Shown: piece by piece, positions 36,225-49,548 of the stretch
Numbering within the stretch: the stretch's first letter is position 1
How the letters are laid out: each line of letters starts with the position of its first letter
NCBI RefSeq assembly: GCF_008298035.1
Contig: NZ_CP042910.1
Coordinates: forward strand, 4,355,001-4,419,000
From: Gimesia maris
Lineage (GTDB): Bacteria > Planctomycetota > Planctomycetia > Planctomycetales > Planctomycetaceae
Direction of reading: 5' to 3'
DNA length: 64,000 nucleotides
Notes under the pieces: model-generated
The model's input: only the letters and a program-made list of their open reading frames with translations
The model's database searches: none
What the model was told of the DNA's origin: nothing
Made by a program: the position numbers and the translations under genes

Positions 36225-39200
36225 ATGCTGTTGACCCATTGGTTAAGGTCGATTTCATCTTTCCTCCGACCATCACATCACCCCTTGCACAAACGCCGTG
36301 TTCGTTCCCGATATGGCAAACCTGCAATCCTGAATCATCAAAGGCGACCGGTTACTGTCGAAGAACTCGAAGACCGCACACTGCTGACGTCGATGATCAG
36401 CGTTGATGATGTGAGTGAATGGGAAGGTGATTCCTGGAATATAAAAACGAACTTTATATTTACGGTAACCCGTACCGGCATGACTCCTGGTGATCTCAAT
36501 CAAGAGTTAATAATTGATTTTATAACACAAGATAGCACAGCAACTCTTTATGGCGATGATTATATCTCCAAAAGTGGATCGATCCTGTTTTCTGCAGATG
36601 CCATGTCAACCTCTCAATCGAAAACGATCATGATTCAAGTTGTTCAAGATGGTGAAGTTGAAACAGACGAATACTTTGAAGTTAGTTTGTCCACGAACAA
36701 TGGAAATGTCATTTTCGATAAAAACATCGGTAGGGGAACGATTCTGGATGACGACATTATGGTTCTGGATCAGGCAGATCGTATCGCCCCCCCTGAGTCT
36801 GCTACCATTGGAGATCATTTTGGAAACGCGATCGCAATCGATGGAGATTTCATGGTCGTCGGTGCAATCGAAAGTGATTTGATCGCAACTGATGCCGGTG
36901 CTGTATATGTTTATTTTCGAAACAGACAGAATACTCCTGATAATGACTTCGATGACATTTGGGAATATCAGACAACTTTGACAGCCTTTGATGCTGCAGA
37001 AAATGATCAATTTGGGTGCAGTGTCGCCATTGATGGTGATACAATTGTGATTGGTGCGTACCAGGATAACGGCCGGGAATACCGAAGTGGAACAGCATAT
37101 GTATATCGCTGGGATGGCAACGACTGGAATTTTGAAGATAAACTCATCGCATCAGACGGAAGATTTAATGACAAGTTTGGTGGTGATGTCACTATCGAGA
37201 ATGATGTCATTGTCGTCGGAGCAGCAGAAAAAAATCCCACTATCCCCAATGCTCCTTATTATATTGCTGATGCAGGTGTAGCATATGTATTTACAAGAAC
37301 CGGGTCAGAATGGTCGGAAACACAAATTATTACTGCCCCTAACATGGACACATCAGACGAATTTGGCTGGAGCGTGGAGCTTGAGAATGACACTCTCTTT
37401 ATCTCTGGACTGAAATCCGATTTCCAAGGTTCAACGGTAGACCAGGGAGCTGTTTTTGTTTATCGAAATATAAACGGAGTCTGGACTCTGCAACAAACTC
37501 TGGGCGTTCCAGATGGCGAAACAGATGACCTGTTCGGATTCGACCTGGATGTTGATGGGGACATCCTGGGGGTCATTTCCGGTTCAAGAGATGCGGGTCA
37601 AAGAAAAGCGTATGTCTTTGAATATGTAGATGGCACCTGGCAATACAGTTATAATCTTGGTACACCAGGAATAGGAAACAATCCATCTGCTAACTCAATT
37701 TCAGTATCAGGAAACTCAATCGCCATTGGTTCAATCCTGAGTGATGGTTATAGAAATGAAACTGGCATAGTTAACATCTATCATCGAAAACCAGGGGGGA
37801 ATTACTGGTCATTCTCAGAAAGTATTTTTGCTGATTATGGTTACACTGATGACTATTTTGGCTATGCAGTAGTTTATACAGATTCGCAACTCATTATAGG
37901 AACTCCTCAAGCTCCCGATTCGACTCGAAATGCAGGCCAGTTGTATATCTTCGAGCCGCATAGATCTGAGGTCAGTTTTGAACTCTCGTTTCAAGGAACC
38001 AGGGAAAATGTTTCCGGACAAACGGCAGTCCGGCTTTATGTCACCAGATCAAGTGATCGTGGTGTGGGCGCTTTAAATTCTGATGTAACAGTTTACTACC
38101 ATACGGTAGATGGTACAGCCACAGCTGCGGATGGTGACTATCAGGAGCAATCCGGTTCAATCACTTTCACAGGCGATCCTCATGCTGGGAGTCAACTCGA
38201 ATACATTACAATTTACGTTAATGATGACGATAAATTAGAAGGGTATGAAGAATTCTACGTACAGCTTACTGACGACACAGGTGATTTTCGCTTTTATTTC
38301 GATCGAGCGGAAATTTTAATATTTGACAATGATTTTGCTAAGGTTAGCGTCGAAAACGTAACGGTCGACGAAGACGCCGGAATGGCCTTGGTCAATGTTA
38401 CCCTGGATAATTCAGTCGACACTAATGTCAGTGTCGACTTTTCAACCGCTGATATTTCTGCTCTTGAATCCAGTGATTATACGCCTACAAGTGGAACGCT
38501 TGTTTTTGAACCGGGTGTGCTGACCAAAACCGTTGCAATTCCGCTAGTCAATACCAATGAGATTGAAGGAGATGAAACTTTTGCCTTGACTCTGAGTAAT
38601 CTTCAGGTCAGCGGTGCAGACGTCCAGATTGGCACAAGTACCGGTATTATCACCATTAAAGATGACGACGAATCCAACCTGTTCGTTGAGGACCTGACAG
38701 TTGATGAAGATACAGGAACCGCATCTGTTGTCGTCACCCTGGATCATCCTGTCTCATTGCCAGTCACGGTTGATTATGCCACTGCAGATGCATCCGCGAC
38801 TGCCTCCAATGATTATCTTTCAACTTCCGGGACACTCTCGTTCGCTGCTGGTGAACAATCAAAAACCATACAGATACCCATTGTCGATGACACAAACCTC
38901 GTAGAACTAACCGAATCGTTTCTGGTTTTATTCGGCAATCTGAAAAGCGGTGGATTGAATGTCTCCCTGAACACTTCACAGATAGAAGTCACCATTCTGG
39001 ATGATGATCAAGCTCGTCTTTCAATAAGCGACTTAACTGTGAACGAGAATGCTGGTACCGCGACTGTTCAGGTCTCACTGGACCGAATGGTCGACACAAC
39101 GATCAGCATCGATTACGCCACTGTAGATCAAACTGCTACAAGTTCTGATGATTATCTCGTTCAAGCTGGAACAATCACATTCAACCCAGGGGAACATGTC

Positions 39201-42200
39201 CAGACAATTGTCATCCCGATCACCGATTCCGATGTGGTCGAAACAGACGAAAAGTTCCTGATCAATCTGACTAACCTGAATACCAATGGGGCTGACGTGG
39301 TAGTATTCGACGATCAGGCCGAAGTCACGATTTCCGATGACGATCAGCTACAGGGATCGATTACTAACGTGACAGTCGACGAGTCTGCTGAATATGCCAC
39401 GATTTCAGTTTCACTTGAATATGCGGTCGGGTTTCCTGTAACAATCTACTTTGAATCAGAAAACGTGACTGCAGTCAGCGATCCTGATTATATTTCTCAG
39501 TCTGGTTCGCTGACCTTTAATCCAGGTGATCTGACAAAATCCATCTCAATCGCAATTTTGAATGACAATCTGGTCGAATCAGACGAGACATTTTTCGTCA
39601 AGCTTACCAGTATCGAATCAAATGGTTCGAATATTATATTCGAAATTGATCGGGCAGAAATTACAATCCAGGATGATGATCAGGCTCAGATCTCAATAGA
39701 TGATCTGACTGTCGATGAAGACGCAGGATCCGCAACCATCACCGTATCGCTGGTTCAACCTGTTGACACTGCGATCACAGTCGACTACACGACATTAGAT
39801 CAATCTGCCAATTCCGTGGTTGATTATATCTCCCAGTCCGGCACACTGACATTTTCCGCTGGCGAACAGTCAAAGACCATTACGATTCCTCTTGTCGATT
39901 CCGACCTGTTGGAACTGACTGAAAGCTTCCTGGTTCAATTGAACAATATTCAGGCTGCAGCAAGAAATGTTATCTTTGCGAACGATCATGCTGAAGTAAC
40001 GATCCTTGATGATGATCAAGCCAGTATCTCGATCAGTGATATCTCAGTCAATGAAGATGCAGGGACGGCCGTACTCACCGTCGTATTGAGTAACCCGGCT
40101 GATGCTGCTTTCAGCGTTGACTTCTCTACTGCTGACAACAGCGCTGTGGATCAGCAGGATTATACCGCGGTTTCAGGTACATTAATCTTCAATGCAGGGG
40201 AACAGTCCAAAACCATCACCATTCCCATTATCAATTCAGATCTTGTGGAGTCGGACGAAACGTTTCTGGTCAACCGGAGTAATATTCAATCCGGAAGCTA
40301 CGATATTGTCTTTGCTGACAATCAGGCAGAAGTAACCATCATTGACGACGATCAGGCTCAGGTAACCATCAACGATATTTCAGTCAACGAGGCAGCTGGT
40401 ACTGCGACTTTGACCGTTTCTCTGGATCATGCCGTTGATCAGTCTGTCAGCCTCGATTTTCAGACTAGTGAGGTCACCGCGACCAGCCCTGAGGATTTTG
40501 TGACTCAGATGGGAACTCTGACTTTTGCTCCTTCTGAAGTTGAAAAATTGATTACCATCTCAATCATTGATTCAGATCTTGTGGAAACGGATGAACGTTT
40601 ACTGGTCAACCTGTCAAATCTCCAGGCCGGGACAGCTGCTGTCAGCTTTGCTGACACCCACGGCGTTATCACAATTCTGGACGATGATCAGTCCAATCTG
40701 CGCATCAGTGATCTCACCATCCAGGAAGATTCCGGCACTGGGTATGTGACAGTCTCCCTTGACAAGCCGCTGCTGACGCCGGTTTCCATTGATTTCAGCA
40801 CCGTCGGTCAGTCAGCCACACAGTCCGTTGATTTTGAACAATCAACGGGAACTTTGACCTTCGCGCCTGGTGAGCTCACCAAGGTCATCCCGATCGTCAT
40901 TACCAATGATAACTACACGGAAACCACAGAGACACTGCTGATTAATCTCTTCAATTTACAAACGGCCAGTCCCGACGTCATCCTTGCCGACTCGCAGTCC
41001 GTCCTGACAATCGAAAATGATGATTTTGCGAAAGTTTCAATCAATAATATCACAGTGAATGAGGCATCCGGGTCTGCATTGATCCAGGTCACTCTGGACC
41101 ATCCCGTCGCGTCCACGATTACACTCGACTATACCACTGCCGATGATTCTGCTTTGAATGCTTCAGATTACTTCGGAAAATCTGGTACCCTGACATTCCT
41201 GGCAGGGCAACAGACCAAATACGTTTCGATCCCCATTCTCAACGACAACCTTGTGGAAGGTGATGAATCATTTTTATTCAACCTGACCAATCTCCAGGCA
41301 AATGGTTATGATGTTGAATTCCTCAGCGAACAGGCACTGATTACGATTCAGGATAATGATCAGGCCAGCATTTCCATCAGTGATATTTCAGTCGATGAAA
41401 ACGCAGGCACGGCCTTACTGACCGTCGAATTGAGCAAGCCGGTTGAAACCGCTTTCACTGTCAACTATGCCACCACTGAGCAGTCTGCACTTGGCACGCT
41501 CGACTTTATTACGACTTCAGGAACGCTGACATTTGATTCCGGAGAGCAGAGTAAAACCATTGCCGTCTCCCTGGTAAATACCGATCTGGTTGAGTCCGAT
41601 GAAACCTTTCTGATTAATCTATTTGACATTCAGGCAAACGAGGCCGACATTACTCTGGCAAATGATCAGGCTGTTGTGAGAATCCAGGATGACGATCAGG
41701 CTCAGATTTCCATTGATGATATTACTGTTGTTGAAAATGCCGGAACGGCGGTGATTACTGTCTCTCTGGATGCCTCTGTGGATACCGCCGTCAGCATAGA
41801 CTTCTCCACGTCTGATCAGACCGCATATCACCCCGATGATTACCTTGCTGTTTCAGGAACCTTAACATTCAATCCCGGTGACCTGTCACAGACTATCACG
41901 ATTGCGATCGTCAATTCTGATAATTTTGAAATCAATGAAACCTTCCAGATCGATTTAGAAAATATTCAAACTACAGCGCGCGATGTCACAATCGCAGACG
42001 ATCAGGCAGTGATCACAATCCAGGACAAAGTTATCACAGCGGGGGAAATTCACTTCAGAGTGGTGAATCAGCCAACCAGTACCAGTCTGACAGGAGAAGC
42101 AGACACACTTCCTGAAAATGAAAGCATCATCAGTGAATGGTCCACCTACTGGGTAGAGATCTGGGTCGAACTCACCAGCCAGATCGAGCACGGAGTCTAT

Positions 42201-43340
42201 TCAGTCAGTGCAGATTTCAATTACAACACGGCATACACCTCTGCTGCAGAAATTGAATTTGGAGAAGGCTTCACACAAAATCAGGCTGGTTCCATCAATG
42301 ATCTGACTGGATCCGTTACAGGAATTTATGCTGAAACAACAATAAATCACCTGGGAGCGGACAGCCCGGTTTTATTCGCTCGTGTTCGTTTCTCACCTGG
42401 TTCTGAAGACCAGGTTTCACTCGAAACCGAGCCTAATAGCATAGGCCCCTATAATCTGAACTTTGAGATCACAAATTCTCATGTCGAATTAGGTGGAAAT
42501 ACACCAGTCACTGTAAACGTGGACTTGTCGCCAGGAGCGTCAATCTACGCCAACCCGTTCGACCTGAATGACGATGATATTATTAATTATCGCGACCTGA
42601 TCCTCTTCGTCGGTCTGTACAATACGGTCCCCAGCGAGTCTGATTCCAGTTTCGCCTGGTTCTCTGACTTCAATCAGGATGATCGTATAAATTACAGGGA
42701 CCTGATTTCACTCGTAGGGAATTATAACAAAGGTAAACAGGATCAGACTGAGGTCATATATCCACAAACTTACCCGAACGCATGGTCTGATTTATTGCTC
42801 GTCGATACATTGAGCACACCACCTGTGACAGCAGATTCCGTTTCGCAGTCCGACGTCGTCTCCACATTCGACACTGTGATCAATCAGACCATGAACAGCC
42901 CGGTTCTTTCCATTGAACAGCAGAAATCCCTGAAACACATCGACATTCAGGTGATCGACCTTGGTGGTGATATTCTGGGAACTGCAGCGGGCAGTACAAT
43001 TTATATCGACGTCGATGCCGCCGGTTATGGCTGGTTTATCGACTCGACTCCCACCGGAAACAGTGAATACACCTGGTCCAGCGAATTGACCCTGATCGCC
43101 CTGCCCGACAGCGACGCTGCTGGTGGCATCGATCTCTGGACCGTCATTCAGCATGAACTCGGTCACCTGCTGGATTACGAACATTCAGAAACCGGACTGA
43201 TGCAGGAAACCCTCGCCCCTGGAATTCGTAAACTCCCAGAGTGGGAATTGAATTATGAATATGAAAACCCTATGGAACCAGAAGCCGTCGACCCCTTCTT
43301 CTTGAACATGCTGGATGAAACCAACCTGCTTCCGTTCTGA
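36225..43340 (+). CDS. Giant secreted protein: FG-GAP propeller, 13 Calx-beta domains, dockerin, metzincin-like protease
   Basis: A 2371-residue protein. The basic N-terminus ends in EELEDRTLL (46-54), the planctomycete extracellular motif that stands in place of a normal signal peptide. The order of domains is: Calx-beta (about 57-180) and seven FG-GAP-like blades (about 182-579; examples DHFGNAIAIDGDFMVVGA and DQFGCSVAIDGDTIVIGA). A second Calx-beta follows (580-705), then eleven tandem Calx-beta repeats of about 112 residues (705-1936). Next come a cohesin-like beta-sandwich (about 1939-2096) and a dockerin pair (2109-2169) with two calcium loops, DLNDDDIINYRDL and DFNQDDRINYRDL. Last is a C-terminal protease region with HELGHLLDYEH (His2310, Glu2311, His2314, His2320) and GLMQ as a possible Met-turn. 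I infer a calcium-stabilised surface or matrix adhesin with proteolytic activity. Confidence 0.9.
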   Translation: MLLTHWLRSISSFLRPSHHPLHKRRVRSRYGKPAILNHQRRPVTVEELEDRTLLTSMISVDDVSEWEGDSWNIKTNFIFTVTRTGMTPGDLNQELIIDFITQDSTATLYGDDYISKSGSILFSADAMSTSQSKTIMIQVVQDGEVETDEYFEVSLSTNNGNVIFDKNIGRGTILDDDIMVLDQADRIAPPESATIGDHFGNAIAIDGDFMVVGAIESDLIATDAGAVYVYFRNRQNTPDNDFDDIWEYQTTLTAFDAAENDQFGCSVAIDGDTIVIGAYQDNGREYRSGTAYVYRWDGNDWNFEDKLIASDGRFNDKFGGDVTIENDVIVVGAAEKNPTIPNAPYYIADAGVAYVFTRTGSEWSETQIITAPNMDTSDEFGWSVELENDTLFISGLKSDFQGSTVDQGAVFVYRNINGVWTLQQTLGVPDGETDDLFGFDLDVDGDILGVISGSRDAGQRKAYVFEYVDGTWQYSYNLGTPGIGNNPSANSISVSGNSIAIGSILSDGYRNETGIVNIYHRKPGGNYWSFSESIFADYGYTDDYFGYAVVYTDSQLIIGTPQAPDSTRNAGQLYIFEPHRSEVSFELSFQGTRENVSGQTAVRLYVTRSSDRGVGALNSDVTVYYHTVDGTATAADGDYQEQSGSITFTGDPHAGSQLEYITIYVNDDDKLEGYEEFYVQLTDDTGDFRFYFDRAEILIFDNDFAKVSVENVTVDEDAGMALVNVTLDNSVDTNVSVDFSTADISALESSDYTPTSGTLVFEPGVLTKTVAIPLVNTNEIEGDETFALTLSNLQVSGADVQIGTSTGIITIKDDDESNLFVEDLTVDEDTGTASVVVTLDHPVSLPVTVDYATADASATASNDYLSTSGTLSFAAGEQSKTIQIPIVDDTNLVELTESFLVLFGNLKSGGLNVSLNTSQIEVTILDDDQARLSISDLTVNENAGTATVQVSLDRMVDTTISIDYATVDQTATSSDDYLVQAGTITFNPGEHVQTIVIPITDSDVVETDEKFLINLTNLNTNGADVVVFDDQAEVTISDDDQLQGSITNVTVDESAEYATISVSLEYAVGFPVTIYFESENVTAVSDPDYISQSGSLTFNPGDLTKSISIAILNDNLVESDETFFVKLTSIESNGSNIIFEIDRAEITIQDDDQAQISIDDLTVDEDAGSATITVSLVQPVDTAITVDYTTLDQSANSVVDYISQSGTLTFSAGEQSKTITIPLVDSDLLELTESFLVQLNNIQAAARNVIFANDHAEVTILDDDQASISISDISVNEDAGTAVLTVVLSNPADAAFSVDFSTADNSAVDQQDYTAVSGTLIFNAGEQSKTITIPIINSDLVESDETFLVNRSNIQSGSYDIVFADNQAEVTIIDDDQAQVTINDISVNEAAGTATLTVSLDHAVDQSVSLDFQTSEVTATSPEDFVTQMGTLTFAPSEVEKLITISIIDSDLVETDERLLVNLSNLQAGTAAVSFADTHGVITILDDDQSNLRISDLTIQEDSGTGYVTVSLDKPLLTPVSIDFSTVGQSATQSVDFEQSTGTLTFAPGELTKVIPIVITNDNYTETTETLLINLFNLQTASPDVILADSQSVLTIENDDFAKVSINNITVNEASGSALIQVTLDHPVASTITLDYTTADDSALNASDYFGKSGTLTFLAGQQTKYVSIPILNDNLVEGDESFLFNLTNLQANGYDVEFLSEQALITIQDNDQASISISDISVDENAGTALLTVELSKPVETAFTVNYATTEQSALGTLDFITTSGTLTFDSGEQSKTIAVSLVNTDLVESDETFLINLFDIQANEADITLANDQAVVRIQDDDQAQISIDDITVVENAGTAVITVSLDASVDTAVSIDFSTSDQTAYHPDDYLAVSGTLTFNPGDLSQTITIAIVNSDNFEINETFQIDLENIQTTARDVTIADDQAVITIQDKVITAGEIHFRVVNQPTSTSLTGEADTLPENESIISEWSTYWVEIWVELTSQIEHGVYSVSADFNYNTAYTSAAEIEFGEGFTQNQAGSINDLTGSVTGIYAETTINHLGADSPVLFARVRFSPGSEDQVSLETEPNSIGPYNLNFEITNSHVELGGNTPVTVNVDLSPGASIYANPFDLNDDDIINYRDLILFVGLYNTVPSESDSSFAWFSDFNQDDRINYRDLISLVGNYNKGKQDQTEVIYPQTYPNAWSDLLLVDTLSTPPVTADSVSQSDVVSTFDTVINQTMNSPVLSIEQQKSLKHIDIQVIDLGGDILGTAAGSTIYIDVDAAGYGWFIDSTPTGNSEYTWSSELTLIALPDSDAAGGIDLWTVIQHELGHLLDYEHSETGLMQETLAPGIRKLPEWELNYEYENPMEPEAVDPFFLNMLDETNLLPF
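38338..42030 (+). repeat. Eleven tandem Calx-beta repeats, about 336-bp period
   Basis: The array begins near KVSVENVTVDEDAG and ends near ADDQAVITIQD. Unit borders fall at roughly 38.34, 38.67, 39.00, 39.34, 39.68, 40.01, 40.35, 40.68, 41.02, 41.36 and 41.69 kb, each with DDDQA-type linkers and xVxExAGTA starts. The spacing is near 336 bases throughout, with no indel between most units. Units starting AQISIDD and ASISISD occur twice each, in reversed order, a sign of later unit shuffling. Confidence 0.9.
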
Positions 43341-43380: not shown

Positions 43381-43794
43381 TCACATTGAAGTCAATGCTT
43401 CCACCAGATCTACATCGTACATTGGCGGAATCGTCACGATGATGGTATTCGCACCATCTTCTTCAAACTTGATGGAATCGAGAGGCATCTTCGCGTCCCC
43501 CAGATTACAGAGAATTACGTTCCGGTCTCGAATCTGAAAATAATGTTCTCGTAATCCCCCCTCTTCCTCCAGCGTCACAAACATCAGAACCCCCTGTTTC
43601 ATCTTCACTGCCTGAACTTTTTTGAACAGTTTCGACCGGGATACAGGTTTATCATCCTGGATGAATTTCCCACTGGGGCCCGAAAACTGATCCTGCCTGC
43701 TTTGATCTACATTAGATTCTTCGGATGGCAGAAAACTGCAGAAGCAGCACACAATGATTATCAGAGAAGAAATCGTAGTGACAAACTCTCTCAT
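43381..43794 (-). CDS. Small secreted protein of unknown function
   Basis: A 137-residue protein starting at ATG 43794 behind GGAG. The N-terminal hydrophobic stretch TTISSLIIIVCCFCSFLPSEE looks like a signal peptide, possibly with lipidation at one of the cysteines. The mature part is a polar, mostly beta protein (LFKKVQAVKMKQGVLMFVTL, HYFQIRDRNVILCNLGD, DGANTIIVTIPP) ending in EALTSM. I do not recognise a family. It begins 74 bases after the kinase stop, on the same strand, and follows the order sigma factor, kinase, this gene. I infer that it belongs to that operon and may be an extracellular partner of the kinase. Confidence 0.7.
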   Translation of the reverse strand: MREFVTTISSLIIIVCCFCSFLPSEESNVDQSRQDQFSGPSGKFIQDDKPVSRSKLFKKVQAVKMKQGVLMFVTLEEEGGLREHYFQIRDRNVILCNLGDAKMPLDSIKFEEDGANTIIVTIPPMYDVDLVEALTSM

Positions 43795-43867: not shown

Positions 43868-46800
43868 TTAGAAACGGGCCTGATTTTTTAGATTTATTTC
43901 GGTTAGAATTGGCTCATTTAATCGCCAGGTACCCTCTGATTTCCCGGGAACAATCAATGTATCCCAGGCAGGGTACTGAATTGTGCTGAATATTTCTTTT
44001 ATTGAGGCGTACGGTACGAGTTCAAAATGGAAATTCGCTGTCTTGAGCAAATCCGACTCTGCCACATCTGGTTTTCTGGCAGCAAACGCAGCCAGTAACT
44101 GTTGCACCACCTTCGCCTGAGACGTGGAGAGGGTATAAGGCAAATATACCCCCATCCCCATCCCTGTCTCTTTCCTGGGCCCAGGCCAGCGGAACCTAAA
44201 ACTGTCTCCCTTGGACCAGTTGGGGTGCTGCTCCGAGAGTTTCCGGAAATCATGACGAATCGTTTTCCTGACAATTTCCCCAGACTTCACCGTGACCTGT
44301 GAATCAACATATTGAACTGGTTGTCCTTCGATTACCCAACCAGCAGTATTACTGACGACTTTCAGCATGTAGTTGCCGGGGGACATTTCGAAAATAGATT
44401 TGCCCGCCATAGACTTTTTCATCATCCAGGGTTTATCTACCGGATTCTGTGGTGCATCCACTAGATTGACCTCTACCTGCAAGCCAGGCTCTTTCGATAG
44501 AATGAGTGCCCCCCCTGCTGCTCTCTTTTTTGCAGGCTGATTACTGACATTTCCAAACGGATCCCCTGTCGATGGCCTATTAATTTGAGGCTCCGCCAGT
44601 CGCCAGGCACCTGTTTCTTTTCCAGGGACGATCAATTTATCCCAGGCGGGATGCTGTCCGTCATTAAACAATTCTTTCAGTGATTGGAAAGACTCTGCAT
44701 CCTCGCCTGCCGGGACCACTAGCAGGAGGACCTTCTCAGAGACTTCCGGTTGTTTGGTGGCATAGGCCTTGAGCAGTTCCTGCACGACCTTTGCCTGAGG
44801 CGCGGTAAGTGTAAATATCTGAGCCCCCCCCATTTTCCAGTCAGGCCAGCGAAACTTGAACAGCCCTCCTGTGGACCAGTCCGGGGGATTCTCAGCCAGT
44901 TTTGCATAGTCCCGTTTAAGCGTGACGGGAACCACGATCGCCCCCGGCTTCACTTCGACCTCAGACAGATCATATTTTGGATTTCCTCCCTCAACTTCCC
45001 AACCGGCGTTTTTACTGGAAACGCGGATGAGATACTTCCCAGCGGGTAGTTCCACCAGTTGTGGCTTCTGAGTAAAGAATCGATCGGCAAAACCGAAAAG
45101 ACCATCTTCCGGGCCCACCTGCATCGGATCAACCGGAAATACACCGGGCCGCAAGCCGAGCGATTGTCCGCTCATTAAGATCGCACCAATATTCTTCTCA
45201 CGTTCTGCTTCCTCTATTTTTCTATCTTTGGCGTCGTTAACGAAATGCTTAATTAATGGAGCCAAGTGTATCTTTTGTCGTTTCCCAGCTATTTTTTTTA
45301 CATTTCTTGTAAAACGCAACGTCTTGCCAGACGCTTTATAAGTAACCTGTAAAGTATGCTCACCCGGTAACAACTTGACTAAAACCGGCTGAGAAACAAC
45401 ATGTATTTCCTCACCAGGTTTAGTTGAAATACGCGTCACTGGATACTGCTTATCAAAGGTAATCTCAACCCAATCGCTACCAGGCTCGCTTACGACCTGC
45501 ATCAACATTGTGAGTGTAAACAGACCAGCCAGTACCGCGGCCACCCAGCCCATGATATTCCAGGGGTTATTTCTCGCCGCTGAAGCTGCTTTCCGCTTAA
45601 TAAAATACGCGGCGATGAACATCCCACAGATCACTGCCAGTCTCAAACCCCAGATCAGGACCCATTGTTTCTCAACCTGATTCAGATGCCGCCAGATCTG
45701 CACAGACAGGATCGCTCCCAACAACAGACCAATGGCAATCACAACTCCCAGGATGACCCGTTTGTTGGAACGACGATGCTCGCGAACAAACGGGTCTTCG
45801 CCGGAAGTGACAGGTGATTGCTCAAGGTTACCTGCCACCGGATTATCACGCTGTTTGAGATAGCGGGCGATATAGAGTAAAATCCCCAGTGGCCCTGCAA
45901 TAACGCACGCCAATAGAAACAGCCCATCCAGAATTTTCGATGCTTTCGATTTTGGTTCTACCAGATTCTGTATTCCACACACCAGCATCAGGAATCCAAT
46001 CGGCCCGAAGAACAACGCGCTGACCAGCGTCATTTCTTCAACATTTGCTGCAAAATGCTGTCCGGTCGACCTGCCATAGAGCAAGATAAAAACCGGAAGC
46101 ACCAACATAATGCTCCCAATCCAGACAGCGGCCCGATCGCCCCAGGATCCCCGGGAGACTCCCGCGGGAACCGACCTCGATACAGAGTACGCAGAGGTCT
46201 CCTCTATTTCCTCATGTTGCGTAACAGTTCCCTGTGTACGATTGCGTTCCATCAGGAACCCTGCTGTCACGAAGAGCCCGCCCATCAGGGAAAAGATCAA
46301 GACCGGCACCAAATACCTTTCTCCCTGAACCAGGAACGCAGGCTGGTAGACTCCTGTTGTAAACATCCAGTAAAATAGAACCATCATCACCCAGATCACA
46401 ATGCCGGTCCCCGTCAGAGTACGTGCATCTTTCTGTTTCACTGCCGCGACATATTCAGCTCCCTGACTTGCGATATGCTGCCACTGCCCCCAGATAGCGA
46501 ACCCGGCAACAGCCAGCACACCCAACACCGAAGCCGCCAGGATCGATGCATGCACCGATTGAAATTCTGATCCGGGGGGGGCAGAACGGATGACTGCGGT
46601 AGTGATAAATGACAACGCCAACGTCATAAACATCGCCAGCATTGACAGAAACCATGTTAAGAAAGGGAGCGGTTTTTTATCTGCTCGATTCCAATAGACT
46701 ATTGAGGCTATAGACAAAATAACTATGAGCGTGCCCGTGAATTTCATAATTTTATTCATGGTCTCATAAGTCATACTCGATTCGGGAGTGCTGGGACTGA

Positions 46801-48565
46801 TCATCTTCAATCCGATGATCGTTCCTAATACCAGGCCCATCACAATGGCAATGATGTAATTTGCCGGTGTTTGCCCTCTTTCCAACACCACAGAGGTCGC
46901 AGTCCTGACCGACTCTGTTTGTTTATCCTGCACTTCGACAGGCTCTACTGATTGTTGCTGTGACTGCCCCCACTGAGGATAACGTTTACGCAATCCCCCC
47001 ACAAAATAAATTGTGAACCCAATCGCAAACAGAATATAGAGCAGAACTCTCGGAAAATCTGGAATCATCCCCAGATAAAACAGCATCTGCATCACCCACG
47101 TTCCGCCAGCTGCTGCAGCGGGCATGAAAAGGGCATCAGACATACGCAATGACAAAAAAGGTTCAGCCTGACGGTGTTCTGCTTCATAAACTATCAAAGC
47201 AATCAAAATCCCCAGGAAGATACTACTTGCTGCAGTCATCAGAAATGAATATGCAGCATGCGCTTCCGAAAACAAAATCATCCCCGCCAGAAATAATATG
47301 GCGTATCCGACTGGCATAAATACCCGCAGATCAGTCTCCATTGTGAATGGATTTTCTCCCTGTGGATGATCCACAGAAACGGTACCTGTGTCGGGTGCCA
47401 TTGTTTCCTGTGGCTGTGGTTGCGGCGGTTTTCTCTCAATCCGTGGTACTGCACCTGGCTGCTGCACAAGAGCCAGATGTGCCCCCAGCAATTCGGCAAC
47501 TTCACTCGCAGTCTGTAAACGATCTTCGGGGCGTTTTTCGAGCAGACAGTTGATAATTTCGCTCAACCAGGGCGGAATATCTTCGTTGACATCTGCAATC
47601 GGGCGCGGAGTATCATCACACACACGACGAACCACCGCAGCCAGGTTACTGGCACGAAATGGCGAACGTCCCGTACACATTGCATACAGAACCGCACCCA
47701 GGCTGAATAAATCACTCCGCTGGTCAATCCGATCCCCTGTCGCCTGCTCGGGAGACATATACTGGGGAGTGCCTGAGACTTCTCCGGTCCTGGTGATCGT
47801 GACGTCATCGACGGCCCGGGCCAGGCCAAAATCAGTAATCTTGACCCGCTCGACACCATTTTCCAACAGAATATTGGCAGGTTTGATATCGCGGTGGATC
47901 AGTCCCTGTTTGTGAGCAGCCGCCAACCCCTCTGCGATCTGACTGCCAATCCGCAGGATCTCTGTTACTTTGAGCGACCCCACCTTATCGAGCTTCTCCT
48001 GCAGTGACTGGCCGACGACATACTCCATTACGAGGTAAGGCAGTTTGTCTTCATCAACGGCATGAATCGTCACAATATGGGGATGGCTCACCGCAGCGGC
48101 TGCTTGTGCTTCCCTGATAAACCGTTTCTTCGCATTTGGATTCACCGCCAGTAAAGGTGACATGACTTTAATAGCCACAATGCGATTCAATTTGGGATCC
48201 AGGGCACGAAAGACAATTCCCATGCCCCCCTGTCCGATAATATTGTAGATCTGGTATTCACCGAGTGTCCCCAGCAGATTCGGGTCAGCTGAGGGCGTCA
48301 GAAATTCCAGACTAAAAGGTTGCACTTCTCCTGAATCGACGGGCGACTTTTCCAGGAAACTACCGGCATCATCATAAGCCAGCAGCAGCGCTTCGACGCG
48401 ACGACGTTGTTCCCGATTGTCGCCGCACATCTCTTCCAGAAAAGCGGCCCGCTCTGCTGGTGTCTTTTTTTCTAACGCGACCAGAAATAAACCTTCGACT
48501 GATTGTGGATTTACATTCTCACGCGTCGGTTCAAATTCCGGATTTTCGGATGCAGGATCGGACAT
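43868..48565 (-). CDS. Ser/Thr protein kinase with about 16 membrane helices and duplicated C-terminal domain
   Basis: About 1565 residues from ATG 48565 (MSDPASENPEF); an alternative ATG at 48598 adds 11, and neither has a good ribosome site. Numbers here count from 48598. The kinase domain (about 115-375) is complete: GQGGMGIVF, Lys144 in VAIKV, HRDIKPAN with Asp237, DFGLAR with Asp256 and GTPQYMSPEQ. About 16 hydrophobic helices follow between 425 and 1035 (for example YAILFLAGMILF and WVMQMLFYLGMI). After residue 1138 the protein carries two copies of a domain of about 200 residues, at 1138-1339 and 1362-1570, both with AWD(K/T)LIVPGK and KVVQ(E/Q)LL. This is far from the usual one-helix kinase plan. 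It lies downstream of an ECF sigma factor. Substrates are unknown. Confidence 0.92.
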   Translation of the reverse strand: MSDPASENPEFEPTRENVNPQSVEGLFLVALEKKTPAERAAFLEEMCGDNREQRRRVEALLLAYDDAGSFLEKSPVDSGEVQPFSLEFLTPSADPNLLGTLGEYQIYNIIGQGGMGIVFRALDPKLNRIVAIKVMSPLLAVNPNAKKRFIREAQAAAAVSHPHIVTIHAVDEDKLPYLVMEYVVGQSLQEKLDKVGSLKVTEILRIGSQIAEGLAAAHKQGLIHRDIKPANILLENGVERVKITDFGLARAVDDVTITRTGEVSGTPQYMSPEQATGDRIDQRSDLFSLGAVLYAMCTGRSPFRASNLAAVVRRVCDDTPRPIADVNEDIPPWLSEIINCLLEKRPEDRLQTASEVAELLGAHLALVQQPGAVPRIERKPPQPQPQETMAPDTGTVSVDHPQGENPFTMETDLRVFMPVGYAILFLAGMILFSEAHAAYSFLMTAASSIFLGILIALIVYEAEHRQAEPFLSLRMSDALFMPAAAAGGTWVMQMLFYLGMIPDFPRVLLYILFAIGFTIYFVGGLRKRYPQWGQSQQQSVEPVEVQDKQTESVRTATSVVLERGQTPANYIIAIVMGLVLGTIIGLKMISPSTPESSMTYETMNKIMKFTGTLIVILSIASIVYWNRADKKPLPFLTWFLSMLAMFMTLALSFITTAVIRSAPPGSEFQSVHASILAASVLGVLAVAGFAIWGQWQHIASQGAEYVAAVKQKDARTLTGTGIVIWVMMVLFYWMFTTGVYQPAFLVQGERYLVPVLIFSLMGGLFVTAGFLMERNRTQGTVTQHEEIEETSAYSVSRSVPAGVSRGSWGDRAAVWIGSIMLVLPVFILLYGRSTGQHFAANVEEMTLVSALFFGPIGFLMLVCGIQNLVEPKSKASKILDGLFLLACVIAGPLGILLYIARYLKQRDNPVAGNLEQSPVTSGEDPFVREHRRSNKRVILGVVIAIGLLLGAILSVQIWRHLNQVEKQWVLIWGLRLAVICGMFIAAYFIKRKAASAARNNPWNIMGWVAAVLAGLFTLTMLMQVVSEPGSDWVEITFDKQYPVTRISTKPGEEIHVVSQPVLVKLLPGEHTLQVTYKASGKTLRFTRNVKKIAGKRQKIHLAPLIKHFVNDAKDRKIEEAEREKNIGAILMSGQSLGLRPGVFPVDPMQVGPEDGLFGFADRFFTQKPQLVELPAGKYLIRVSSKNAGWEVEGGNPKYDLSEVEVKPGAIVVPVTLKRDYAKLAENPPDWSTGGLFKFRWPDWKMGGAQIFTLTAPQAKVVQELLKAYATKQPEVSEKVLLLVVPAGEDAESFQSLKELFNDGQHPAWDKLIVPGKETGAWRLAEPQINRPSTGDPFGNVSNQPAKKRAAGGALILSKEPGLQVEVNLVDAPQNPVDKPWMMKKSMAGKSIFEMSPGNYMLKVVSNTAGWVIEGQPVQYVDSQVTVKSGEIVRKTIRHDFRKLSEQHPNWSKGDSFRFRWPGPRKETGMGMGVYLPYTLSTSQAKVVQQLLAAFAARKPDVAESDLLKTANFHFELVPYASIKEIFSTIQYPAWDTLIVPGKSEGTWRLNEPILTEINLKNQARF
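43889..45187 (-). repeat. Internal duplication in kinase C-terminus
   Basis: Two diverged copies (coding residues 1138-1339 and 1362-1570) share the order: P(A/G)(G/N)Y(L/M)(I/L)(R/K)V, then DWSTGG/NWSKGD, then F(K/R)FRWP. Next is (T/S)xxQAKVVQxLLxAxAxxxPxV, and finally PAWDxLIVPGKxxGxWRLxEP. The copies likely fold as equal domains. Only amino-acid similarity was compared. Confidence 0.8.
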
Positions 48566-48754
48566 GATTTCATTTTTCGTCAGGATGGAGGACCCCATCA
48601 GGCTCAGAATTGATTACGGAACATTCCTTGTTCCCCCTCTATTGAATCATGCGATTTTCAGATCTGGCGCGCCTCACTAAATCAGAAATAAAAAGTGTTT
48701 CTATCAGAAATGATTTATTGGCGGGCAGGTAGAATTCGCCGTAAACACATACTA

Positions 48755-49327
48755 TCAAATCGTTTGATCAGTGTCAGACTTTATTTGAGAAAACAGCCAC
48801 GCACGCGAATAAGCCCAGTGTCGCGCTGCAGTCGCGCGTGAAATCCCCAGTACCTCGGCTGCTTCCTGCTCGCTCAGTCCTGCGAAGTATCGCAGCTTAA
48901 CCAGTTCTGCTTTGTCCGGACTCTCTTTCGCAAACTGAGTCAACGCCTCATCCAGCGCCAGCAGGTCGTCAGGACGTTCCAGCGCCGGTGCTGCGATCTC
49001 GGGTAGATCGACCCGCGCATGCTCGCCGCCATGCTTCAACCGTTTTTTTCTGCGGGCGTTTTCAATCAGGATCCGCCTCATTGATTCCGCAGCAGCTGAG
49101 AAAAAATGCCCCCGATGATCCCATCGCTGTTCGCTCACATCCCCAACCAGTCTCAAATAAGCTTCATGAACCAGTGCCGTCGCCGTCAGTGTCTGTCCCG
49201 GCGGTTCGTTTGAAAGCTTATGCCGCGCCAGTCGCTGCAGTTCCGCATACACGATTGGCAGCAGCTGATCCGTCGCCGCGACATCGCCTGCTTCCAGAGC
49301 CTGTAAGATTTGGGTTACATCCTGCAT
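48755..49327 (-). CDS. ECF-type RNA polymerase sigma factor (kinase-linked)
   Basis: A 190-residue sigma factor of the extracytoplasmic-function group. Region 2 reads IVYAELQRLARHKLSNEPPG, then TALVHEAYLRLVG and FFSAAAESMRRILIENARRKK. The last block matches the TIGR02999-type ECF factors. Region 4 is AKESPDKAELVKLRYFAGLS, then EQEAAEVLGISRATAARHW, a helix-turn-helix. There is no anti-sigma gene beside it; instead a Ser/Thr kinase gene follows in the same direction. In planctomycetes ECF factors paired with Ser/Thr kinases are common. Kinase control of the sigma factor by phosphorylation is my inference for this pair. The ORF starts at ATG 49327. Confidence 0.93.
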   Translation of the reverse strand: MQDVTQILQALEAGDVAATDQLLPIVYAELQRLARHKLSNEPPGQTLTATALVHEAYLRLVGDVSEQRWDHRGHFFSAAAESMRRILIENARRKKRLKHGGEHARVDLPEIAAPALERPDDLLALDEALTQFAKESPDKAELVKLRYFAGLSEQEAAEVLGISRATAARHWAYSRAWLFSQIKSDTDQTI

Positions 49328-49377: not shown

Positions 49378-49387
49378 ACTGGCCAGT
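49378..49387. promoter_or_regulatory. Short perfect palindrome upstream of sigma-kinase operon
   Basis: ACTGGCCAGT is a perfect 10-base palindrome 51 bases upstream of the sigma factor start, framed by GTTAC and GTAAC offset by one base. It could be an operator, but the length makes chance possible. Confidence 0.3.
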
Positions 49388-49548
49388 GTAACCTGTGGGA
49401 CAGCCCATGCAAATCAGAATTACATTTCCCACCAGACCTGTGATCAGTTAACATGAGAGTTGATGCATTGGATGACTGTCTTCGGTCATCTTCTGAATTT
49501 TGATTTTTAAACTCAATAGCGACCTTCAATCAGAGAAAGTTTAGCACC

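Follow-up and report, generated by a model that had tools for sequence, protein, structure and literature searches.

A polytopic Ser/Thr kinase and an ECF sigma factor are encoded side by side on the minus strand of the window, the whole stretch of 64,000 nucleotides analysed here, and are best read as a variant of the known ECF-kinase pairs in which the kinase is polytopic and carries an unnamed repeated unit. We consider it reasonably probable that the kinase is a receptor with its C-terminus outside, which activates the neighbouring sigma factor by phosphorylation. The initial annotation had described a complete kinase, many helices and two C-terminal copies, an observation borne out by the open reading frame, Pfam, hydrophobicity and BLASTP; the sigma factor, the likely output of the kinase, was absent from its reading. 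Such a pair offers a concrete and testable case of how a many-helix bacterial kinase reports to transcription. The features concerned are:

43381..43794, minus: gene following the kinase, encoding 137 aa with a hydrophobic segment (by eye) at the N-terminus
43868..48598, minus: whole kinase ORF, 1576 aa counted from the first ATG
43910..44200, minus: unit 2 winged-helix-like domain, residues 1467-1563 (AlphaFold2)
44219..44515, minus: unit 2 beta-sandwich, residues 1362-1460 (AlphaFold2 of the unit)
44585..44860, minus: unit 1 winged-helix-like domain, residues 1247-1338 (fold by homology to the unit 2 model)
44879..45187, minus: unit 1 beta-sandwich, residues 1138-1240 (fold by homology to the unit 2 model)
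45239..45481, minus: PEGA-like stretch, residues 1040-1120 (VKLLPGEHTLQVTYKASGK...; likeness by eye)
45491..45769, minus: membrane block D, 3 segments, residues 944-1036 (present in 12 of 12 genus proteins)
45857..46141, minus: membrane block C, 3 hydrophobic segments, residues 820-914 (12 of 12 genus proteins)
46241..46870, minus: membrane block B, 6 segments, residues 577-786 (10 of 12 genus proteins)
46979..47332, minus: membrane block A, 4 segments, residues 423-540 (6 of 12 genus proteins)
47489..48262, minus: Hanks-type Ser/Thr kinase domain, residues 113-370 (PF00069, motifs and identity)
48335..48511, minus: conserved N-terminal segment, residues 30-88 (identity among relatives)
48755..49327, minus: ECF sigma factor, 190 aa (PF07638, E 3e-62; TIGR02999 over cut-off)
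49178..49180, minus: codon of sigma factor Thr50 in the motif TATALVHE (by-eye alignment with the phosphorylated Thr of EcfP/EcfK)
49385..49413, minus: promoter-like pair TTTGCA-17-TACACT upstream of the sigma gene (by eye in relatives)

Residues are numbered throughout in the 1576-aa reading, a scheme which the residue numbers of the initial annotation also fit; its gene end at 48565 is the codon of Met12, which is the likelier start as several relatives in the genus begin with a matching MSDP... at the N-terminus.

The kinase domain is recognized by PF00069 (E 5e-52, residues 115-364) and, with its glycine loop at residue 122, VAIK at 141, HRD at 235 and DFG at 256, is of the Hanks type; the APE position reads SPE, within the stretch starting at 276, and with all catalytic motifs found the domain is complete, as had been proposed. 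The mean identity of this domain between relatives and the window protein is 93% within the genus and 76% in other genera. The preceding N-terminal segment, with the pattern SVEGLF.AL...FL...CGD...RR.R.EALL.AYDDAGSFLE, shows mean identities of 87% (n=10) and 66% (n=8), respectively, and was matched by similarity search in 56 of 170 family genomes, paralogues counted. In one relative (L043, genome G063) the start of the kinase ORF falls within the kinase domain, with the N-terminal segment in an open frame of its own, owing to a frame break or else to an error of sequencing. When the whole ORF was scanned, no Pfam or NCBIfam model scored above its cut-off outside the kinase domain. The protein does not belong to the PASTA kinases (PknB/Stk1): its kinase domain reaches 310.9 bits against NF033483 through the kinase part only, under the 450-bit cut-off of that model, and no PASTA domain appeared in the Pfam scan.

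The sigma gene lies 156 bases upstream of the kinase ORF on the same strand. Region 2.2 of its product, placed by eye, reads TATA and not DAED, and a Thr at the third motif position is found at 16 of 16 sigma loci among the relatives and at 6 of 6 further loci. The neighbourhood itself recurs widely. A same-strand sigma gene stands upstream of the kinase in 16 of 20 loci of relatives, 1.1 kb off in one (L035) and nearer elsewhere, and the four misses comprise two loci at contig ends (L045, L048) and two without a sigma gene as far as fetched (L049, L051). Eleven further kinase ORFs of more than 1000 residues have a sigma gene at six loci, four times upstream and twice downstream, the other five being one at a contig end (L118) and four without sigma gene (L109, L112, L113, L114); for these four, as for L049 and L051, no sigma gene was found within at least 1.6 kb of upstream sequence. 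Among more distant or fragmentary kinases a sigma gene is present at six of seven loci, and the seventh (L200) has its start 0.4 kb from the end of its contig. Each of the five TIGR02999 sigma factors found in the own genome is accompanied on its strand by a kinase no more than about 1.2 kb distant, the partner kinases of the other four possessing one membrane segment each. The gene adjacency of an ECF sigma-kinase pair of the EcfP/PknT type is thus present in the window. An alignment of 11 sequences, made up of the window and ten relatives but not L035, shows by eye a core resembling the promoter-like pair that lies upstream of the sigma gene. The exact pair occurs once in the window, 0.22 occurrences being expected with up to one mismatch, and is not significant alone, at least one occurrence being seen in 20 of 100 shuffles.

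A Hanks-type kinase beside a DAED-less ECF sigma factor is likewise described for the ECF43-kinase pairs PknT/EcfP of Vibrio parahaemolyticus and PknS/EcfK of Xanthomonas citri, while canonical sigma factors are described as carrying a DAED-type motif in region 2.2. EcfP possesses STTA, reported to be phosphorylated on the second Thr, and EcfK QATE with T51; set against TATA in the window sigma factor, a Thr stands third in all. As T51A EcfK of X. citri is reported to be still functional, Thr50 need not be the sole site. ECFs outside ECF43 are stated to carry DAED or a very similar charged motif (PMC8999054), and from these the window sigma factor differs by motif, having no DAED-like charged one. 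Shared with the window pair, on the other hand, is the planctomycetal sigma-kinase neighbourhood of ECF59, ECF61, ECF62 and ECF217, which are listed as phosphorylation-regulated in the same source (PMC8999054). PknS is called a transmembrane kinase in the abstract that describes it, whereas about 15 crossings are counted in the window kinase, which in addition ends in a repeated unit without a name.

In the preferred reading, the N-terminal segment and the kinase domain would lie in the cytoplasm, and the membrane block, probably with 15 crossings and one non-crossing hydrophobic segment, would anchor the protein and bring the C-terminal region to the outer face. Outside, the PEGA-like stretch and the two units, each a beta-sandwich followed by a winged-helix-like domain, would form the variable input part; upon a change in the state of this input the kinase would phosphorylate Thr50 of the neighbouring sigma factor, and phospho-Thr50 might then supply the negative charge missing in region 2.2 so that the sigma factor binds RNA polymerase. 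Sensing in or across the membrane is plausible. An extracytoplasmic sensor of winged-helix fold in a kinase would, to our knowledge, be without precedent.

The hydrophobic segments, 16 in all, occupy residues 423-1036. By the Kyte-Doolittle rule 15 separate segments are obtained (18 stretches listed, some overlapping); the sixteenth, near residues 490-509, passes this rule in two relatives (L035 and L036), and in the window protein it is assigned by the topology script, which in turn omits the segment 858-876. Two of the three segments of block C contain GP[IL]G, and one segment of this block is probably not a full crossing. The about 16 membrane helices first counted hold as hydrophobic segments, while as full crossings 15 fit slightly better: the 15-crossing model of the window protein slightly beats the best model with the C-terminus inside (14 crossings). 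That these helices are artefacts of low complexity, a reservation entered at the time, is excluded by the recurrence of the blocks in genus relatives at 54-75% mean identity, a value which falls to 15-29% beyond the genus. All four blocks are present in the window protein and three genus relatives; block B is missing in L039 and L040 and block A in L037, L038 and L041-L044, the segment number within the genus being 10, 12 or 16. Across relatives about 5 to 16 helices are found, with mostly 5, 7, 9 or 11 crossings in the outside-C models of other genera.

In the own genome PF00069 gave 46 matches, and among the 42 kinase ORFs in the surrounding stretches, judged by one rule, membrane segments number one in 27, none in 8, two in 1, three in 1, four in 3, six in 1 and 15 (16 with the weak one) in the window protein, which confirms for this genome that one helix is usual and that this kinase stands apart, the next highest having six. 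Most planctomycetal membrane kinases are described with a single segment and some are predicted with up to 18 (PMC11032199); the polytopic class is hence rare, not unknown, and a high helix number has already been reported for Ser/Thr kinases of the Planctomycetota. The part of that article consulted mentions neither the C-terminal unit nor the pairing with a sigma factor for these polytopic kinases.

The orientation of the C-terminus was approached with a home-made positive-inside script, the N-terminus being set inside and L048 and the fragment L117 not counted. An outside C-terminus is preferred in 25 of 31 proteins, the other six preferring the inside or giving a tie, with small margins of 0 to 4 units (1.6 for the window protein). 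The count of K and R around the last segment, 17 to 11 with 4 ties among 32 proteins, is a weak indicator. Among the 10,819 residues that make up the C-terminal regions of 21 related proteins 13 are Cys, compared with 93 of 7,770 when the first 370 residues of each are taken, and this low Cys content fits an outside location. Judged from these predictions, we hold it quite likely that the C-terminus is outside.

The two C-terminal copies share 72 of 163 residues (44%, BLASTP E 3e-44) and are placed by the profile at 1138-1337 and 1362-1563, so that the repeat of roughly 200 residues noted initially stands. An AlphaFold2 model of the whole of copy 2 (55 alignment rows, pLDDT 87.9, pTM 0.85) runs in the order eight strands, short helix, strands, three helices and two strands, and the second half of copy 2 alone (45 rows, pLDDT 85.6) again gave strands, three helices and two strands. 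Instead of the single domain per copy proposed before, each copy as modelled on copy 2 is made of two domains, a beta-sandwich and then a winged-helix-like domain. In Foldseek nothing matched the copy 2 model at E 0.001 or better; the best match was a CNA-B-type minor pilin (E 0.022, TM-score 0.26), and many of the matches shown are chains that we take to be beta-sandwiches. Although the matches to the first half of the unit include 3phs, CnaB2 and BcpA chains, the likeness to the CNA-B/pilin-type beta-sandwich comes with no sequence match to the window units. The second half alone gave weak matches (best E 0.58), among the first of them Dcc1, VanR, RitR-type regulator, Rok and Oskar LOTUS chains, all of them winged-helix proteins, and the list also includes PhoP and a TcpP complex chain. 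With winged-helix domains this half shares, in two models, the order of strands, three helices and two strands, but it is on median acidic and has no sequence match to a named family; it may be called winged-helix-like.

The family of the copies was initially given as unknown, and Pfam, NCBIfam and PHROGs indeed name neither of them: searches of Pfam and NCBIfam that admitted E values up to 10 matched neither copy, and PHROGs gave two weak matches (E 0.13 and 0.21) without a family that names the domain. The C-terminal region has no sequence match among solved structures at E up to 10, and profile searches against solved structures gave weak matches (best E 0.31 and 0.49). For the winged-helix-like part, alignments of 41 and 45 rows were chosen from 71 copies and later loci by dropping near-identical, fragmentary and very divergent copies; Pfam searches with the 41 copies gave scattered weak matches, each in at most 3 of 41. 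Residues 1040-1120 have no Pfam match to PEGA at E up to 1, and the PEGA-like stretch is present in 5 of 12 genus proteins, window protein counted. DNA binders are usually basic, whereas the winged-helix-like domain has a median net charge of -3 in 62 kinase copies, with 7 of 62 at +3 or more, which argues against DNA binding; the two domains of the window protein stand at -1 and +2, and nine standalone copies range from -5 to +5.

Relatives mostly carry two copies of the unit, with one in L045 and three or more in L046, L047 and L051. Profile and protein searches also found the winged-helix-like domain at the C-terminus of small planctomycetal proteins of 206 to 425 residues, by which the second half of the unit appears to be a mobile domain. 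The finding points to an unnamed domain shared between receptor kinases and small planctomycetal proteins. The latter (L101-L106, L121, L122, L124) vary in their N-terminal parts, which are unrelated by eye, and frequently show the line SPDFRSVxWFGxxYxFTxxQAACVxxLWEAWENGTP...AWGTMIV...KGxYRL; in six of the standalone proteins that were checked no hydrophobic segment was found. Of 170 family genomes 40 were matched by the unit profile, as were 16 of the 392 phylum genomes sampled, some of them through the second half alone. A single-sequence search matched 22 of 150 order genomes, and a wider one that started from a standalone copy reached 2 of 246 phylum genomes. Within the genus 13 of 17 genomes were matched; the misses are three fragmented assemblies (G078, G517, G518) of 590 or more contigs and G008, in which, although it is a single contig and 99% complete, neither the units nor the N-terminal segment passed the search thresholds. 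The kinase gene is the sole match of the profile in the genome that holds the window. A first scan of genome contigs gave no relatives, and a narrower alignment gave six loci with planctomycetal titles, among them Kuenenia, which we take to be planctomycetal; three of the six repeat known proteins (L120 is L104, L123 is L066 and L125 is L102).

The conserved output contrasts with a divergent input. Beside the values for the kinase and membrane parts given above, the mean identity of the unit halves to the window protein is 45-66% in the genus and 21-37% beyond, in a table based on up to 10 genus and up to 8 other-genus proteins, of which 1 to 7 per membrane block, and leaving out L043 with its split frame and the contig-truncated L048. 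Moreover, five kinases 57-66% identical over residues 29-370 have no detectable units and, in four of five, a sigma gene nearby; by eye, their ends show TPR-like repeats (L201), a PEGA-like stretch (L203) or unlike sequence (L199, L200), and that of L202 (2577-4634), a 66% identical kinase beside a sigma gene, follows directly after the membrane block. In L202 six hydrophobic segments are seen, by eye arranged as two block-C-like modules with GP[IL]G. A conserved kinase with changing helix number and C-termini argues for an exchangeable sensor on a constant output. More generally, there may be a planctomycetal class of such kinases that combines a kinase and sigma output of near-constant sequence with exchangeable membrane cassettes of about 5 to 16 segments and tandem units outside as the sensor. 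Comparison from genus to genus, where the kinase is kept and the membrane and C-terminal parts change, offers a way to probe what the membrane block contributes.

The same variation bears on the channel- or transporter-like character which the initial annotation had ascribed to the membrane block and which, while the polytopic outlier kinase and the unnamed domain pair of that interpretation stand, found no support. That the block is a functional transporter or channel, its occupancy or flux being read by the kinase, is suggested by the number of segments alone and seems very improbable: neither a described membrane family over its cut-off in the Pfam and NCBIfam scans (best weak match MARVEL, E 0.005) nor a constant helix plan was found, and block profiles run against the window protein revealed no significant internal repeats (best E 0.08). 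Some genus members lack block A and others block B while retaining the kinase and the units, other genera have mostly 5 to 11 predicted crossings, and the membrane parts diverge between genera (15-29% identity) far below the kinase (76%); varying helix number and diverging or replaced C-termini argue against a conserved transporter. The kinase might also act mainly on other substrates, with the sigma factor an incidental neighbour, as at least six relatives without a nearby sigma gene as far as fetched would allow, but the sigma-kinase neighbourhood of 5 of 5 own-genome sigma factors and 16 of 20 loci of relatives, together with the DAED-less motif and its conserved Thr, makes this decidedly unlikely.

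A cytoplasmic C-terminus, reached by 16 crossings, would put the winged-helix-like units in a position to bind nucleic acid or a cytoplasmic protein and would make the kinase a membrane-tethered scaffold or regulator near the sigma factor. The 16 hydrophobic segments, the occurrence of the same domain at the end of small proteins devoid of hydrophobic segments in the six checked, and VanR, PhoP, Rok and the TcpP complex chain in the Foldseek list are in line with this arrangement, which we nevertheless regard as unlikely in view of the outside preference in 25 of 31 proteins, the low Cys content of the C-terminal regions and the acidic median charge of the domain in the kinase copies. Beta-sandwiches of the type found in the unit are, in addition, common outside cells. 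The outward-facing receptor that signals to the sigma factor is the reading we prefer.

Downstream of the kinase, the 137-aa protein (34-70% identical) is the very next gene at all 11 genus loci and is a candidate partner of the sensor; it was not detected in nine loci of other genera and has no Pfam or NCBIfam match. Further on, a 2371-aa protein is encoded on the plus strand (36225-43340), and all 11 genus loci have tblastn matches to it, of 93 to 1179 aa, close to the kinase; we take it to be a surface-type protein in which Calx-beta-like and FG-GAP-like sequence is repeated and the N-terminus bears an EELEDRTLL motif.
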